NCBI GenBank assembly: GCA_016197185.1
Contig: JACPWH010000102.1
Span: forward strand, 1 to 41,986
DNA from: Ignavibacteriota bacterium
GTDB taxonomy: Bacteria; Bacteroidota; Ignavibacteria; Kapaibacteriales; UBA961
DNA: 41,986 nucleotides
Direction: 5' to 3'
The notes below the pieces were generated by a model. The model saw only the letters and a list, made by a program, of their open reading frames with translations. It was not told the DNA's origin and did not search any database. Within the stretch, counting starts at the first letter, position 1, and the number at the start of each line of letters is the position of its first letter. The translations under genes and the position numbers were made by a program. Of this stretch, positions 5,332-31,666 are shown piece by piece.

Positions 5332-5417
5332 GCGATGGTGGCGAAATCGGCAGACGCACAGGACTTAAAATCCTGGGCTCCGTAAGGAGCGTGTGGGTTC
5401 AAGTCCCACCCGTCGCA
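5332..5417 (+). tRNA. tRNA-Leu(UAA)
   Basis: 86 nt; acceptor GCGATGG/CCGTCGC, anticodon stem-loop CAGGA-CTTAAAA-TCCTG (anticodon TAA), long variable arm GCTCCGTAAGGAGC, GTTCAAGTC T loop. Confidence 0.95.
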
Positions 5418-5432
5418 CTCTTGGGAAAAATT

Positions 5433-5465
5433 AAAGCCCTGATCTTTTGATCAGGGCTTTTTTTG
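5433..5465 (+). terminator. Rho-independent terminator after tRNA-Leu
   Basis: AAAGCCCTGATC-TTTT-GATCAGGGCTTT followed by a T-run. Confidence 0.9.
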
Positions 5466-5531
5466 TGTGCAATACCTCCTACAGTTTACCCCTCCACTCT
5501 TTTGTTAATAGAATATAAAAGGTTTATTTGA

Positions 5532-5629
5532 GCGTTGAAATCGTGCGTTGAAATCGTGCGTTGAAATCGTGCGTTGAAATCGTGCGTTGAAATCGTGCGT
5601 TGAAATCGTGCGTTGAAATCGTGCGTTGA
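5532..5629. repeat. 13-bp tandem repeat array (GCGTTGAAATCGT), 7 full copies plus partial
   Basis: Direct count of identical 13-mers. Confidence 0.97.
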
Positions 5630-6185
5630 GCTTGCACAACCATCTTTATCATAATATATTAGCATGAGTTCAGGGTAATTTAAAACTATATCCCTGTTTT
5701 ATAGTGCATCAATACTTTTTAAGTACTTGTCAACGTACAGCTATTACATTATAAGGAATAGATCGAATGTAAAAAACGGATAACGATATTCGTTCAGTTC
5801 CTCTTTATAGTTTCAATAGTGAACACTTTGCAGGAACTTTGACAATAATTTAACAGGAGGTAATATATTTCAGAAAAGTAACAACCCAAATTCGGGAACT
5901 ACATATATAATCCTCCCTTGCTTTAGGTTAAGAAAAGTGAGCACGGAAAATGGCAGAAATGCAAAAACACTTAATCCTTGCTGATCGGATAGAACCTCTG
6001 AAGTAATATCTCGAGTAATATCTCGGCAAGCTACAGTCCGTTATGGACTATAAATAGACATAGTTAATTTCTGATAATCACATAAAAGTGATAAAAATAA
6101 GTAAGTGGAGTCTAGAACCCACTATAATAAACGGGGCGTTTTCCGAAAAGCCAAATGAGTAGGAAAATTTTAAGGAGCATTAAAA

Positions 6186-6557
6186 ATGGCAAATACAATT
6201 AAAATTACAGCATGCGATAATGAACTTATTCTTATTGCATACCAATCGGGTTCAAGTTTCGAATTATGCCGAATTCTTAGCGGCTACAACAATTCGGTAA
6301 ATATTAGTGTAAATATTTACAACGGTCAGTTTCAAGGAACACTTTTATTAGACGGGATAAATCCCGGCAACTCGTTGAGTGGTACTTATAATATAGCTCT
6401 GGCAAAGGGTCAATACAGCTTGATAGGATTAGGTATTGATTGGGGAGGACCACAGGCTTTTGCATTTTCATTGAATGGATCAGCAGCTGGCTTTATTGCA
6501 ACAGGCGGGGCTGATGGTTTAGTTTCATATACCAAACCTATTGTACTTACTGTTTAA
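6186..6557 (+). CDS. Orphan 123-aa, probably beta-rich protein of unknown function
   Basis: ORF with AAGGAG ribosome-binding site at about 6171-6176; no recognised family. Confidence 0.65.
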   Translation: MANTIKITACDNELILIAYQSGSSFELCRILSGYNNSVNISVNIYNGQFQGTLLLDGINPGNSLSGTYNIALAKGQYSLIGLGIDWGGPQAFAFSLNGSAAGFIATGGADGLVSYTKPIVLTV

Positions 6558-6608
6558 TAAAGTAAGTAATCAGTCCGGTTGTAAAGTAAGACGTTCTTTT
6601 ATTTGCTT

Positions 6609-6693
6609 TGATGATGAAAGTTGGCAGATACATGAGACTTAAATCTTGCGCCTTGAAAGAGGCATGTGGGTTCAAGCCCACCTGTCACGCTCA
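6609..6693 (+). pseudogene. Decayed tRNA-Leu copy
   Basis: Alignable with 5332-5417 (GGCAGA..CA..GACTTAAA-TC.TG.GC...GTGGGTTCAAG.CCCACC.GTC); 6-nt anticodon loop and broken acceptor stem. Confidence 0.8.
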
Positions 6694-6703
6694 TGGAAAA
6701 AAT

Positions 6704-6737
6704 GAAAGCCCTGATCTTTTTGATTAGGGCTTTTTTT
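6704..6737 (+). terminator. Duplicated rho-independent terminator after the decayed tRNA-Leu
   Basis: AAAGCCCTGATCTTTTTGATTAGGGCTTTTTTT, near-identical to 5433-5465. Confidence 0.85.
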
Positions 6738-6814
6738 GTTCGATTGTGTAAATACCCCTCAAAATCCCACCTATCTCTTTTCTACAATTTGTGCAAAAAA
6801 CCTTACTTTCCCGA

Positions 6815-6859
6815 GTGTTGAAATCGTGCGTTGAAATCGTGCGTTGAAATCGTGCGTTA
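6815..6859. repeat. Second array of the same 13-bp repeat, about 3 copies
   Basis: gTgttgaaatcgt followed by 2 perfect GCGTTGAAATCGT units and a partial. Confidence 0.95.
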
Positions 6860-6885
6860 TGCTTAAATATAAAAATATTTTTACA

Positions 6886-6893
6886 TATCTTTG
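6886..6893 (+). promoter_or_regulatory. TAnnTTTG promoter box downstream of second array
   Basis: TATCTTTG about 40 nt upstream of ATG 6933. Confidence 0.4.
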
Positions 6894-6932
6894 CAAAAAG
6901 TTGATATTTTAAATTTATTCCTAAAATCTACT

Positions 6933-7346
6933 ATGAATAAAATTTTACCATTAGTTACTACTTTGCTTTTACTTAATTTAAGTCGTGCGTATTCTCATGA
7001 TGATAATGCTTCAAGTCTTAAATTATTAATTGGTAAGTATAAAACGAGTTTAGACTCGGTTGAAACCGTCTATAAAGAAACCATGAAGGAATTAGATACT
7101 AAAAAAACAAGATTTTCTGCAGATAATGAGACTACAAGTTTAGATTTGTCTAGTAAAATTAAATTTTTAGAGGGGAAAATCAGTTCAATTGAACAAGAAA
7201 GAAAATTAGACATTGAAGCTAACGAAGCTGAAGTTCAGAAAGCTAAAGGCATATTGAATACAAGGTATAAAGCTGGTCTCGAGGCCATTATTTGTCGCCA
7301 CTTTATTTTTTTGTTTAATTTTAATTTATTTATTTTTCACAATTAA
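6933..7346 (+). CDS. Secreted or membrane coiled-coil protein of unknown function
   Basis: MNKILPLVTTLLLLNLSRAYSHDD signal peptide (in-frame start inside ORF 6891..7346), then heptad-rich region; C-terminus may be frameshifted. Confidence 0.5.
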   Translation: MNKILPLVTTLLLLNLSRAYSHDDNASSLKLLIGKYKTSLDSVETVYKETMKELDTKKTRFSADNETTSLDLSSKIKFLEGKISSIEQERKLDIEANEAEVQKAKGILNTRYKAGLEAIICRHFIFLFNFNLFIFHN

Positions 7347-7404
7347 AGGAATTCAAAGTCATAATTAAAAATGGAGTTAGATCGATATTATCGAATTTAT
7401 TTTT

Positions 7405-7788
7405 ATGTTAACAAGGAGATCTTATGATGACATGAAAGTAATTGATTTTGTTGTCAAAAACTATATTAATGAAAACAACTCTTTAATTGACACTCTGAAA
7501 GATTTGCATAAAGAATATATCAATACAAAAGATACATCTGGAGCAATTATGAGAGTTATAAGCAATTTGGATCGTTTTGAATTAGTTCTAAGTCAAATCC
7601 CTAATTTGATATTAAGAATAAAATCATTACATGAAGGCTATGTTGCAAGATTTCCTGATATGAGTCCAATATTTCAAAACATATTAGCTCAAGCTGATAA
7701 ATGCAAGGCAAGATATGATTCAGACGTGAAACCTATATTAGAAGTTACACCTGAGTTAAAGAATGATATTCTATTTTCAAACCTATAG
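7405..7788 (+). CDS. Hypothetical helical protein
   Basis: 127 aa ORF; start could be 7405 or 7432; no recognised family. Confidence 0.45.
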   Translation: MLTRRSYDDMKVIDFVVKNYINENNSLIDTLKDLHKEYINTKDTSGAIMRVISNLDRFELVLSQIPNLILRIKSLHEGYVARFPDMSPIFQNILAQADKCKARYDSDVKPILEVTPELKNDILFSNL

Positions 7789-7967
7789 TTTTATTCTCGG
7801 TCGTGTCAGGTGTTTCTACACATAATTTTAACTCACTCCGATGTAATTCATGTGTAGAATTTGTTTAATTTATTACAAAATTATCAATTTACCAATATAA
7901 GAAATAAACTTTAAACCAAAAAAACCGCCGTAACATCAACTCCTGCGGTCTTTTTATTACCCACCCC

Positions 7968-9773
7968 TCAATTCTTCTGCGGAAACCCAATCACGTCCGC
8001 AACCCCACTCCTGACCGAAAACCACACCACTTGTATAAATGTATCCCCCGGCTTACGGGTATATCGTATCTTGCCCAATTTCAAATTACCATTCTTGTCC
8101 CTCTCGTTCGAACCGTTAAACTTAAATGTATTGGCAAGGAACGACTTGATTATATTAAAAACACCATCGCCGCTTTTGGTCTGTTTATCAAGAAAAGATA
8201 AATGGAAATCTCTATACTCCACTCCAACCGTTCCTCGTGCCTTGCCGTCGTCCACCATCAAATTAAAAAATGAAGATTGTACAAAACCGGATGTGAGTTG
8301 AACGTGTTCCGCAATCTCGAGGAATGTATTGAACTTCGATAGCTTTATCGGGCTAAGATTACCGGACGCTCTAAAACAGAATTTAGGTGTAGTAAGCGGA
8401 GTGCTCAGTTGGAGAGTTAGTTTCCCTCCATCCATAAATTCGGAATTCAAGCTGATAACCATTGTGTCACCACGCCCATTATTATTCGATACATTCCGAA
8501 TCATTGCATTCATATTAGTAAATGTAATGGGAGCAGGTTTGGAGCGAGGTTGATAATATTCTCCATACTTGATATAGCCGTTCAATGCCTCTACACTGTC
8601 CACCTGAACTATTTGCTCAACATTGTACATAATCTCGTTGGGCATGGGAATCTTTGATTTCACGTCTTGATCACTCTTTTTATACATACTCACATAAATA
8701 CCCACTTCAGGGTCTTGTGCCTGTATATATCTTGCTTGGAATCTCTCACCTTTCAGCAAACCGGAGTATTGAATTCCATATACACTCAATTGAGGTAATA
8801 AAAAAGCAACCCGTGTCCTTCTGAATTTACTTGCATCAAAGAATTCGTTTTCCTCCAATAAAGGATCAATTCTATAATCATAAGCTACGGCTGTAGAATC
8901 TTGAACTGACGCGTGGACGATTGCACAATGGAATCTATATCCGTCTTTAGGCAAAGAATCACGTTCCGAACATTCTCCGTACTGAACATTTGTATTTTCA
9001 ATATTGAAACTGTCGATTTGTATTTTATCACTAAGTGAAGCAAGAAACTTACTTGTAGATGAATTTTTAGTACTATCAGGATCACATTCCTTATACATGT
9101 TCACCAGAACATTTAGCGAAGCGTCGTGCATATAGAGAGTGGATGCCCTGAAACTTTTGCCGTGCAATTGTTGAAAGAATGACAACCCCTTAATTTTCAC
9201 CTGAGGTAAAGACATTATATATCGTGTTTTTCGGAATTCACATTCATCAAAGAAAGCATTATCGTCCACAATCGGATGTATTTTCAAACTATCGAAAATA
9301 ACAAGAGAATCTCTCATCGACACTTTGAATTTATGACAACGAATTTCATACAAGGTCTTTTTCAATTTCACATCAATAGAATTGGCTTCCGCACTTATCC
9401 CTTTCAAAGCACTCATGTTCAAAGTATCTGCCCATAAAAGTTTGAACCAATTAATACCCCTTGCACTTGGCTTCCCGATACTGCATAAGAATGAAGAATC
9501 CTTTGCATTTATGTGAACATCCCCTAATTCAATATGTCCGTTCAGCAAATTAATATTCAGGTCTGACATATATAATATATAATCGGGATATGCCTCTGCA
9601 AATTCCATTTCTACTTGTTCTTTAAGATATTTATTGACAAATAAATCCGGTGATACTATTAATATAATCACAGTAGAAATTGCAATCGTTCCAAAGATAA
9701 TAGTACTTAACGTTACTATTTTCCATTTTGATTTTCTAACCTTTTCAGGTTTATATGGAGTTTCGGGGTTCAT
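7968..9773 (-). CDS. AsmA/DUF748-like membrane-anchored protein
   Basis: 601 aa; N-terminal TM helix, long repetitive beta region, C-terminal VEYRDFHLSFLDK...FIQVVWFSVRSGVADVIGFPQKN. Confidence 0.55.
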   Translation of the reverse strand: MNPETPYKPEKVRKSKWKIVTLSTIIFGTIAISTVIILIVSPDLFVNKYLKEQVEMEFAEAYPDYILYMSDLNINLLNGHIELGDVHINAKDSSFLCSIGKPSARGINWFKLLWADTLNMSALKGISAEANSIDVKLKKTLYEIRCHKFKVSMRDSLVIFDSLKIHPIVDDNAFFDECEFRKTRYIMSLPQVKIKGLSFFQQLHGKSFRASTLYMHDASLNVLVNMYKECDPDSTKNSSTSKFLASLSDKIQIDSFNIENTNVQYGECSERDSLPKDGYRFHCAIVHASVQDSTAVAYDYRIDPLLEENEFFDASKFRRTRVAFLLPQLSVYGIQYSGLLKGERFQARYIQAQDPEVGIYVSMYKKSDQDVKSKIPMPNEIMYNVEQIVQVDSVEALNGYIKYGEYYQPRSKPAPITFTNMNAMIRNVSNNNGRGDTMVISLNSEFMDGGKLTLQLSTPLTTPKFCFRASGNLSPIKLSKFNTFLEIAEHVQLTSGFVQSSFFNLMVDDGKARGTVGVEYRDFHLSFLDKQTKSGDGVFNIIKSFLANTFKFNGSNERDKNGNLKLGKIRYTRKPGDTFIQVVWFSVRSGVADVIGFPQKN

Positions 9774-9883
9774 GCGTTTGCAGGTATTATTTTATAAAAT
9801 TAGCTTTCTTCATTTTTTTAGGTACGTAAGTTCTGAAACAAAAATAATCATCATAATTAATATTCATAATTTGGCAATTATCA

Positions 9884-10006
9884 GACACTTCGACTGCGCT
9901 CTGTGTGACATAACTCATTGTTTTTAAGAAACTAAAAATGCCTGCCATGCGAGCACAGTCGAAGTGTGACATAACTTGATTGTCATGCTGAACTTAGTCG
10001 AAGTAT
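9884..10006. repeat. Intergenic inverted repeat built on the TGTCA..CTTCGACT motif
   Basis: ACACTTCGACTGCGCTC pairs imperfectly with GAGCACAGTCGAAGTGT; third related motif TGTCATGCTGAACTTAGTCGAAGTATT. Confidence 0.75.
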
Positions 10007-10395
10007 TTGATTATTTGCCAATTCAACTCTCTGCGTTTAGATTAATTATGTCTCGGTGCTTATTATACTGCTTGATCATACCCCCCAATTCTCTCGAAGA
10101 AGGGAGTTAGAACGTTTGTTCTGTTTTTTTCTGTAAATTGAGCAGGAACGTAACTGCCCTCTCTTGAAGAGGGAAGGAATTTCTTTAGATTTAAAAAACT
10201 GCCTGTTGTAACAAGGGAAAGAAGTTGTATCAATTTTTACAGATTTTCACTATTTTCTTTCAAATCTCGGCTTTGATAAATGAAAATCCTTCGTTTGATT
10301 ATCTTCCCTGTGATTGTAATAAACCCTTTAGGATATTTGCTAAAATACACAATCAATCAAATTACTCACCTGCCTTATCCTCTGTTTTATTACGT

Positions 10396-11433
10396 TTAGA
10401 CTCTTTTTGAGCCTCGCTCAAGCAATACTCCTATCCACCGAGTGTTTTCATTACTTTCCAATCCGAATTTCAATGCCATTGTGAGCGGCACGCATAACAT
10501 CGCCCCAACCGGACCGAGCAAATTACCCCAAAAAATCACCGAAAGAAATATCACTAATGTGGAAAGTCCGAGCATTTTCCCCATTAAACGCGGTTGAACG
10601 ATACTTCCCAATACGAACGTAAAGAACAGATACCCGAGAGCAACAATTCCTGTCTGTGCAGGACCTAATTGAATGAACGAAACTGCAACAGTAAGAACAA
10701 GTGCTATTGCCGAACCGATATTCGGTATATAACATAAGAAAAAAGTAATGAGACCTATCATTATCGCAAAGTCAACACCAAATAAAGCCAACCAGATAGA
10801 AGTAATAATTCCTGTTACCAATCCGTAAATTGTTTGGAAAATCATAAATCTGGGCATTTCCTGCATAAATTTACTAAACCCTGGAAAAGCAGCACGTGGA
10901 CTTTCTACGGCGGCACGAATCTTACTCGGGAAAGTGGAGGCTTCCATTAGTATGAACGATACCATCAAAAGGATTACCACTATACTTGAAACAAGCGAAC
11001 CGATACTGCCCAAAAATCCTGTTGCCAGCGCAGTCATATTCTCCGCATTTATAGATTTTGTGAATGTATCCTCACTTACTTTTATTCCCTTGCTGCCCAA
11101 AAACTCTACAATAGAATTTATATTTTGATGCAAACGATCCTGATATACAGGAAGGGATGTAAGAAGGCTATCAGTAAAATTTCCTATAATTAGCCCGATA
11201 AGAGCCAGAATAAGTATAAACCCTGAAATGACAATCAACACTCCTAATCCTAATGGAACACCTCTTTTGCTGAGTCGTCTGAGAATCGGAACTCCGAGTA
11301 TCGAAAGAAAAATTGAAATAAGAAAAGGCATCAGCACCGCTTGCGCTAAATATATTCCTCCTATAATAATTACTAACAAAGCACCTACCACAAGAAAGTT
11401 TGTCCCGCTTTTAAAAATTGTTTGTTCTTTCAT
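10396..11433 (-). CDS. AI-2E family transporter
   Basis: 345 aa polytopic protein with PerM/YdiK-like topology and motifs (GVPILRRLSKRGVP, FFLCYIPNIGSAIA, VQPRLMGKMLGLSTLVIFLSVIFWG). Confidence 0.85.
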   Translation of the reverse strand: MKEQTIFKSGTNFLVVGALLVIIIGGIYLAQAVLMPFLISIFLSILGVPILRRLSKRGVPLGLGVLIVISGFILILALIGLIIGNFTDSLLTSLPVYQDRLHQNINSIVEFLGSKGIKVSEDTFTKSINAENMTALATGFLGSIGSLVSSIVVILLMVSFILMEASTFPSKIRAAVESPRAAFPGFSKFMQEMPRFMIFQTIYGLVTGIITSIWLALFGVDFAIMIGLITFFLCYIPNIGSAIALVLTVAVSFIQLGPAQTGIVALGYLFFTFVLGSIVQPRLMGKMLGLSTLVIFLSVIFWGNLLGPVGAMLCVPLTMALKFGLESNENTRWIGVLLERGSKRV

Positions 11434-11584
11434 AACCGGTTTTTGAAGTAAATTTAGTAGGAGGTAACTGTACTTAAATTATAAAACAAAGGTATTTTCG
11501 GCAAGCTCTTTTTATTGTAGCAAAACACGAAAACACCTTCTGATATAATACTTTTATCTTTTTGAAATCATAGAACCATGAGTT

Positions 11585-12313
11585 CTACAACCTCTTCAAT
11601 GCACGAAAAGCTAATTTGATACCTTTTTCTATTTCATCACTATTGTTAGGATCCCTCGGGTCAAGAACAGAATTATCGTTTCTAAAAATAAACAACGGGT
11701 TCATAAAGAGAAGGATGCTATATGTAGTGTGAACCTGAATGTCAATATCATTCAGGAATTTTAAGGTCAAATTGTGGGTTGATTTGCTCTTATATGTAAA
11801 TGGATGTCCAACTCCATCTTTGTAAGAAATACCCTCTATAATTATTGTATAGCGGTCATCTGTTACAAAATCGCTGTACACTCCATCGTTAAGATACGCA
11901 CCCACTTCGTTTGCACTAAACTTATGAATTTCGAACTTGATATGGTCGTAAATTCCAATAGGAATCGGACTCGAAGCATTTAGATATGCTCCTGATGCAT
12001 CTATATTGAGGAGAAAAGGACCTACTTTAATATCATGACCGGGAAAGTTTGAATCTTCTTTGGTCATGTGCAATTTCATATTCGATATAAGTATTCTCAC
12101 TCTATTTATATGCAACGAATCTGCTGTTTCACCGTTTACAGTAATCGCCGGCTCCCCATTACTCTTCGAAGCAGGTGTTACAGATGTAGCATCTAATTGT
12201 GTGTATATTTGAATTTGAGGCTCATTGGATGTAGTAGTACTTTCAGAACATCCTAAAGTCCAAAGACTTATACAAATGGCGATTGCTAAGCGCAATCCAA
12301 TGAATGCTTTCAT
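11585..12313 (-). CDS. Putative lipoprotein of unknown function
   Basis: Signal with lipobox-like LWTLGC; 242 aa. Confidence 0.55.
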   Translation of the reverse strand: MKAFIGLRLAIAICISLWTLGCSESTTTSNEPQIQIYTQLDATSVTPASKSNGEPAITVNGETADSLHINRVRILISNMKLHMTKEDSNFPGHDIKVGPFLLNIDASGAYLNASSPIPIGIYDHIKFEIHKFSANEVGAYLNDGVYSDFVTDDRYTIIIEGISYKDGVGHPFTYKSKSTHNLTLKFLNDIDIQVHTTYSILLFMNPLFIFRNDNSVLDPRDPNNSDEIEKGIKLAFRALKRL

Positions 12314-29637: not shown

Positions 29638-31666
29638 ATGACCTACGAAGAATTACTGCAGATTCTCTATCAAGCAAAACAAGAAGAGCGAGGGTATAAC
29701 TACTCCGAATGTGAACGGTTATGCAATGTTGTATTTCAAGCTGTAGAGATCGAAAAACTCACTGAAGATGAACAACAATCGCTGCGAACAAGAGCATTTC
29801 ATTTATCTGGCAATGTCTCCTGCCGGTTACATCATTATTCCCTTGCTATCGAGAAGTTCAACCGAGGGCTTGAGATTGCTATAGCACAAAACAATAGAAA
29901 CGGTCAAGCGGGTTTGTTAGATGAAATAGGCGGGGTTTACTGGTGCATTTCAGATTATCCCAAGGCATTGGAGTATTATCACAATGCCCTTACAATAACC
30001 GAGGAACTTGGTATCCAACATGATATAGCGAAGGTTTTGGCAGATATTGGGTTGGTGTATATGGATATTGAAGATTTCGACCGTTCGTTGAAATATTATC
30101 AAAGAGCTTTAGCAATTGCAGAAAATGAACAGGATAAATCATCGATTACAATCTACCTTGGAAATATCGGGAATGTATATGGTGCTTTGGAGGATTACAA
30201 CCGTTGTCTCGAATACAATTTAAAAGGTCTTACTATTGCCAGAGAAATTGGCAACCTCAGAAGCGTTTCAGCAAAATTGAGTAATATTGGAATCGCTTAC
30301 CGTAAGCTGAACGACTATTCCATGTCAATGGAAAAAATACTAAAATTTATGTTTTATCTTTATTTTTAATAGTTAAATATATAAAGATTTATCATATTAA
30401 TAAGATTTTAAGTTTTTCGATAAATTTTGGTCACAATCTAAAATAAATTTATTAGACAACGGTTGTAATCCATGCTCACTTGCCTTAGAAAAATATTATA
30501 CTCTCGACAAGGAAATTCAAAGTGAGGATACAAAGCGAATAGCAGATAAATATGCTTATGAACTTCAAATAGTGGAGCAAGAAAAGCAAATAGCTGTCGA
30601 ACAGGCTCGCAATGAAGAAATTAGGCGGCAACAGCATATTCTGGAAGAACAGGCAGCTAAAATTCAACTTGCCAACACTGAACTTCAAGAACGAAATATT
30701 CAACTTGATAACGCCAATTATCAACTCTCGGAGCAAGCTGCTAAAATTCAGCTTACCAACACAGAACTTCAAGAGCGAAACATTCAACTTGATAACGCCA
30801 ATTATCAGCTCTCGGAGCAAGCTGCCAAGATTCAACTTACCAACACTGAACTTCAAGAACGAAACATTGAACTCGATAATGCCTATTTGCAACTATCGGA
30901 ACAAGCAGCTAAGATTCAATTGAAAAACACAGAATTGCATGAAACAAATATTGAATTGAACGATGCAAACCTGAAACTCGAAGAAGCAGGCAAATTCAAA
31001 ATGAAGATTCTTGGAATTGCATCTCACGACCTGAAAAACCCGATTGCAGGAATTAATTTATCGGCAGAGGTATTGATGAGATATGAGAAACTATCCCCTC
31101 AATCTACCAAAATGATGAAAAACATAATGAATTCATCCAAACGTATGTTGGATATAGTTGTGAACTTAATGGACGTTTCGGCACGGGAACTTGGCGAGAT
31201 TAAACTTACACACTCGAGTTTTGATATTGTTTCACTCGTCGAAGATATTTCTAAGGAATATCTGATGCGAGCCACAGAAAAAAAACAGATGTTGGAGTTT
31301 GAGTCGGATGGTGCTTGCACTGTGCTTGCCGATGAGCAATGTATGCGTCAGATATTCGATAATCTAATCAGTAACGCCATTAAGTATTCACCACAAGAAA
31401 AACGTATCAATATATCGGTTATGCCGTCAGCGAAAAAAGTGAAGGTTGCCATCGCCGACCAAGGACTTGGTTTGAGCACAGAAGACAAAGCTCTCATGTT
31501 CAGAGATTTCCAGAAGTTATCCTCGAAACCTACAGGCGGTGAAAGTTCAACGGGACTCGGCTTGTCAGTGGTCAAACATTTAGTTGAGCTTCATGGGGGG
31601 AAGGTATGGGCAGAAAGCGAAGGGAAAGGTATGGGTAGTACGTTTTTTGTGGAATTGCCCCTGTAG
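29638..31666 (+). pseudogene. TPR-histidine kinase gene interrupted between the TPR and kinase parts
   Basis: TPR ORF 29638..30369 ends in MSMEKILKFMFYLYF*; AT-rich segment follows; kinase part resumes as LALEKYYTLDKEIQSEDTKRIADKYAYE...ASHDLKNPIAG...STGLGLSVVKHLVELHGGKVWAESEGKGMGSTFFVELPL. Confidence 0.65.
30647..30982 (+). repeat. Four in-frame 84-bp tandem repeats encoding a 28-aa coiled-coil unit
   Basis: EQAAKIQLxNTELQERNIxLDNAxxQLS x4 upstream of the HisKA domain. Confidence 0.95.

Follow-up and report, generated by a model that had tools for sequence, protein, structure and literature searches.

A decayed tRNA-Leu copy and the accessory DNA behind it

The window, which is the whole 41,986-nucleotide stretch of Ignavibacteriota DNA analyzed here, contains an intact tRNA-Leu(UAA) gene followed by its terminator and, 69 bp past the terminator, by an array of the 13-bp unit GTTGAAATCGTGC (Table 1). 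The first-pass annotation had placed a decayed second tRNA-Leu(UAA) and terminator about 1.3 kb downstream, with a GTTGAAATCGTGC array behind each copy, and this was borne out. The second tRNA is indeed degenerate: it has no tRNA fold, its acceptor stem is broken, its anticodon loop is 6 nt, and neither ARAGORN nor Rfam calls it. The score of its alignment with the intact gene was reached by none of 1000 shuffles, as was that of the two terminators with each other, and positions 6623-6858 match positions 25-251 of the query at 75% identity (E 1e-31). The spacers had been called alignable as well, and here the support is marginal and depends on the scoring: 238 of 1000 shuffles reach the score of a strict local alignment, compared to 1-5 of 1000 for a soft global one. 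Because of this marginal support, spacer homology was not accepted as proof of a duplication of the whole module. The sequences upstream of the two tRNA copies are unrelated to each other. The two copies lie on a single contig and differ by about 25%, which excludes an assembly duplicate.

Although genuine, the tRNA duplication is nothing unusual, and relics of this type are most simply explained as segmental duplications. The relic in the window would be a copy of the tRNA-Leu, its terminator, and perhaps the start of the array, made amid the turnover of accessory genes and separate from the operator system described below. Its terminator may still insulate the second unit.

Table 1. Features of the window around the two tRNA-Leu copies
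Feature	Position	Strand	Basis
Intact tRNA-Leu(UAA)	5332..5418	+	ARAGORN; Rfam RF00005, 57.5 bits
tRNA-Leu intrinsic terminator	5433..5464	+	Fold z -5.7; U-run read directly
Accessory stretch	5465..11580	.	blastn against G001 C15 (absent at same site) and G002 C645
Putative 13-bp operator array 1, seven GTTGAAATCGTGC units	5534..5624	+	TRF, 100% matches; array scan
Predicted promoter 1	5632..5662	+	-33 TTG at 5632-5634; -7 TATATTAG at 5655-5662 (5/6 of TAnnTTTG); fixed 30-bp offset from array end
DUF805 RNA (RF03081), leader of 123-aa gene	6100..6169	+	cmscan, 76.6 bits
123-aa protein gene, predicted target 1	6186..6557	+	ORF; G009 homologue
Decayed tRNA-Leu(UAA) relic	6609..6694 (about)	+	Homology, 0/1000 shuffles; no ARAGORN or Rfam call
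Relic's terminator, nearly unchanged	6704..6738	+	Fold z -6.5; homology
Putative 13-bp operator array 2, three GTTGAAATCGTGC units	6817..6855	+	TRF; array scan
Predicted promoter 2	6863..6893	+	-33 TTA at 6863-6865; -7 TATCTTTG at 6886-6893 (6/6)
137-aa protein, apparent signal peptide, predicted target 2	6933..7346	+	ORF read
127-aa orphan	7405..7788	+	ORF

The locus downstream of tRNA-Leu(UAA) had been expected to vary between relatives, and it does. About 6 kb (5465-11580) is missing from the sister species G001, where blastn finds the tRNA-Leu and a diverged terminator directly abutting the orthologue of window positions 11585-12313; the 6 kb is therefore accessory, either gained in this genome (G000) or lost in G001. 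Its AsmA-like and AI-2E genes are common to G000 and G002, a sister MAG from the Ignavibacteria. At the syntenic locus of G002, the tRNA-Leu terminator is present twice, a tRNA-Leu(UAA) relic lies between the copies, and an array follows. At the tRNA-Leu(CAA) locus, G000 has about 2.1 kb, including an array, that is absent in G001. The comparison of an insertion boundary at C180 extends as far as a contig end in G001. Another tRNA-Leu(UAA) fragment in G000, consisting of the 3' half and terminator, lies behind rsgA (C151, 3189-3287, minus strand) and has no array. The stem of this last terminator is closer to that of G002 than to that of G000's own tRNA-Leu terminator.

These observations bear on the suggestion in the first-pass annotation of a tRNA-anchored locus for gene capture or duplication. 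In a capture locus, the tRNA-Leu, terminator, and array would together serve as a module for recombination, and an integrase supplied in trans would place genes between tRNA fragments. Such a locus could account for the accessory DNA found behind both tRNA-Leu(UAA) and tRNA-Leu(CAA) relative to G001, as well as for the recurrence of tRNA-Leu relics. It is common for accessory genes to lie behind tRNA genes. The alignment of the window relic runs from near the 5' end of the tRNA through the terminator and is not limited to the 3' end; tyrosine recombinases leave copies of the 3' end, whereas this relic also includes the 5' half and terminator. The proteins examined around the window arrays and the ORFs read or scanned in 5465-11580 include no integrase or recombinase, in agreement with the earlier remark that none was visible. 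Moreover, only five of the 24 arrays known from G000 and G002 lie behind a tRNA-Leu or a relic, and it is from promoters, not from insertion ends, that the arrays keep a fixed distance. Since the majority have no tRNA anywhere near, the array was rejected as part of a tRNA module. Capture is thus quite unlikely: the variable site and the recurring relics stand, but the array falls outside the tRNA module and reads as an operator.

Arrays, predicted promoters, and downstream genes

The GTTGAAATCGTGC array is found nine times in G000 and 15 times in G002. No other genome among 124 of the order has it, and a scan of 85,462 species, one genome each, returned only G002's own record. The number of units varies between loci, ranging from 2 to 7. 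For the window, TRF gives spans of 7.5 units (5532-5629) and 3.2 units (6817-6858), with 100% matches. CRISPR features are lacking in the window arrays, whose units run head-to-tail with no spacers between them. Elsewhere in the window, an 84-bp tandem repeat (30656-30919, 3.1 copies) is possibly coding since its period is divisible by three.

When the 24 arrays are aligned on their ends, a common geometry is seen. A -7 box that matches TAnnTTTG in at least five of six positions lies exactly 30 bp past the array end in 14 of the 24, nine of them perfect, compared to a background of 0.0098 per position elsewhere (binomial P about 1e-22; a few arrays are orthologous pairs, so about 22 are independent). 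A TT at -33 is present at offset 7 after the array end in 20 of the 24. In Bacteroides, the published consensus (PMC7366714) pairs TAnnTTTG at -7 with TTTG near -33; that both motifs come from other Bacteroidota is a caveat. Upstream of the arrays, only about 3 nt are shared, and a search of the aligned flanks for shared terminal inverted repeats gave no conserved columns beyond the array and promoter. Because of the fixed promoter distance and the location of arrays behind small AraC-like genes (see below), the array reads as an operator and not as a capture site. Judged from sequence, it is a putative iterated operator upstream of a predicted promoter.

Could the array instead be a mobile minisatellite or MITE that landed near promoters by chance? 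A minisatellite-bearing MITE is known in Porphyromonas gingivalis (PMC4596501), and the many near-identical copies in two genomes, with copy numbers that differ by locus, are what such an element would leave. The aligned columns, however, lack shared flanks and terminal inverted repeats, the spacing to the promoter is an exact 30 bp, and different units with the same pitch lie beside homologous regulators. This origin is very improbable.

The genes downstream of the arrays are mostly unrelated to one another. Their products include secreted proteins with Por_Secre_tail or subtilase domains, tail-collar proteins, a phage-type lysozyme, a C70-like peptidase, DUF2589, and orphans. At one G000 locus (L014, C295, 4883-5302), two opposite-facing arrays are about 320 bp apart, one ahead of a secreted-protein gene and the other ahead of three genes with phage tail-collar domains. 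Directly behind the array at L011, L014, and L062 is a gene starting with MECFMQ or MECLMQ, with conserved leader DNA, from a dispersed family of secreted proteins.

In the window, both modules had been described as followed by orphan genes. The 123-aa protein has no match in Pfam and PHROG scans, but it is not a strict orphan, as a 64%-identical homologue is encoded in G009, which belongs to another genus of the same family. The 127-aa protein has no match in a Pfam scan, and its gene is possibly co-transcribed with the preceding 137-aa gene. The G009 homologue also sits behind a DUF805 RNA. This RNA (RF03081) is found 6-19 nt ahead of the start codon in many unrelated genes of the order (L085-L104). 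In relatives, most DUF805 RNAs have no upstream array and one DUF805b lies behind an array; the RNA was considered as a part of the array system and left as unrelated. The leader of the 123-aa gene also contains two copies of an exact 12-bp direct repeat, AGTAATATCTCG (6002-6025).

Small AraC-type regulators and their linked arrays

At three loci (L009, L051, and L061), the gene immediately upstream of the array encodes an AraC-type protein of 144-155 aa that consists of the HTH_18 domain alone. A regulator beside the array is the exception, as most GTTGAAATCGTGC arrays have no adjoining regulator gene. Members of the regulator family are about 131-179 aa long, with one domain and no ligand domain. 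Pfam PF12833 (HTH_18, two HTH motifs) scores above its cut-off in two members, and TIGR04094 matches weakly in 5 of 10. Compared with solved structures, the family profile is closest to YesN-type and MarA DNA-binding domains (MarA 1bl0, E 5e-10; SoxS, 2e-9), and AraC is also matched. In G000, the GTTGAAATCGTGC-linked regulator is a 149-aa protein encoded at C33:17544-17993. G002 has two, on C760 and C107, that are only about 39% identical, and either may be the one that serves the arrays in trans. An AlphaFold model of the 155-aa C107 regulator alone had a pLDDT of 39 and was discarded.

Homologues of the regulator occur in three families of the order with a tandem 11-13-bp array of their own, usually no more than about 60 bp past the stop codon and in some cases overlapping it. 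Among the units are GGCGAAATCGTTC, TCTGATTTTGTCC, TATGATTTTGAC, CGGACAAAATGGG, GCGAAAATTACAG, GCGAAAATTATAT, GTCCGTAGAAAAA, CGAAAAGGTGCGC, and GAAATAATAGCC. Apart from GTTGAAATCGTGC, units are local, present at one or two places per genome beside their own regulator. Tandem repeats are found behind 20 of 30 short AraC-like genes versus 1 of 36 long ones (Fisher 1e-8). A promoter resembling TTG-20 bp-TAnnTTTG fits best behind 13 of the 17 other arrays linked to a regulator; the fit was searched over spacings of 18-22 and is therefore supporting and not independent proof. At some loci (L143, L135, and L150) the array is short or degenerate, and one strong family member, on G025 C86, has no array. 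When the search was widened to the phylum outside the order, most of the regulators returned were long, and no array accompanies the three short ones that were checked, L171, L172, and L174. On G001 C60 (L209, 12000-26000), three successive units of a small AraC-like gene and an array lie in a row. Two of these three regulators are broken by frameshift or truncation while their arrays and promoters are kept, as expected if the intact regulator serves the broken units in trans.

Regulator and unit also covary. The similarity of units tracks the identity of regulators (Mantel r 0.57, 0/5000), and in a deduplicated set of 15 dissimilar members the correlation is r 0.40 (1/5000). Classes of the second recognition helix match classes of units: TLRD goes with GAAATCG, TFNR, TFQR, and TLKR with TGATTTTG, and SFRR with CAAAATGGG. 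Part of the Mantel signal could come from common descent of linked DNA. The GTTGAAATCGTGC unit, however, also recurs in trans at unrelated loci, and descent at a single locus does not explain this recurrence.

The arrays might still be operators bound by a repressor or by some different DNA-binding protein, with the adjacent AraC-like genes acting elsewhere. The position of an array is by itself no proof of activation, and the scarcity of adjoining regulators would suit this explanation too. The arrays are, however, upstream of the -33 element and not over the promoter, and both the linkage of regulator to array and their covariation tie the two together. MarA/SoxS-like proteins, which are among the closest solved relatives, are activators that work from such positions upstream of -33. 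A repressor or a different protein is therefore unlikely, and activation by the small AraC-type proteins is the preferred reading.

A predicted regulator and operator system compared with known systems

Small AraC-type activators probably bind to iterated operators that adjoin the activators' genes, and the GTTGAAATCGTGC unit has probably spread from there to a regulon of 9-15 promoters that includes both window arrays. A stand-alone AraC/MarA-like (HTH_18) regulator would bind each 13-bp array head-to-tail. Between the end of the last repeat and the -33 element are 7 bp, a distance at which the bound protein could touch RNA polymerase and activate transcription. The number of units, 2-7, would set the strength of the response. 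AraC-type proteins usually cover about 17-20 bp, so a 13-bp pitch would need unusual packing. Each regulator would be encoded directly upstream of its own array, the unit having diverged together with the DNA-binding domain. The predicted GTTGAAATCGTGC regulon comprises 9 promoters in G000 and 15 in G002, mostly of secreted or orphan genes, and would take in both window targets. The chances are about even that these are examples of a wider family of orthogonal regulator-operator pairs, in which an array lies behind each gene, unit and DNA-binding domain co-diversify, rows of MarA-like proteins read the length of the array, and one unit occasionally spreads genome-wide. No matching description of tandem 13-bp AraC operators was found in the open-access literature searched.

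If this is true, these uncultured Ignavibacteria-like bacteria contain a natural collection of regulators matched to operators encoded beside them, with recognition sequences that are specific to each clade. How AraC-type helices encode specificity could then be tested directly, and orthogonal promoters that can be tuned by length would be on offer. The system would also explain repeat arrays otherwise filed as minisatellites or attachment sites, and it predicts a common regulon for otherwise orphan secreted proteins.

Several known systems share parts of this design. Like MarA, SoxS, and Rob, the regulator is a small protein with essentially one HTH_18 domain (two HTH motifs), and its site adjoins the promoter. 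MarA uses single, degenerate marboxes of about 20 bp, whereas here there are 2-7 near-exact tandem units of 11-13 bp that lie beside the regulator gene and are clade-specific. The direct-repeat operators of AraC/XylS, such as araI1-I2, also lie beside the -35/-33 element. In araI1-I2, two half-sites about 21 bp apart serve a dimer, in contrast to the open-ended series of 11-13-bp units seen here. tRNA-associated genomic islands resemble the locus in having accessory genes downstream of a tRNA-Leu and a tRNA relic; they differ from it in that no integrase was found here and the relic spans nearly the whole tRNA and its terminator. In the TIGR04094 or Spy1337/R28 system, an AraC-like gene likewise adjoins the gene for a secreted or surface protein under its control, but transcription of Spy1337 is divergent and the intergenic region contains a homopolymer tract (PMC7098570). 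It has no iterated operator, while here the orientation is the same and a tandem array is present. The design of regulator plus iterated operator looks new, and the tRNA relic beside it is an ordinary remnant.
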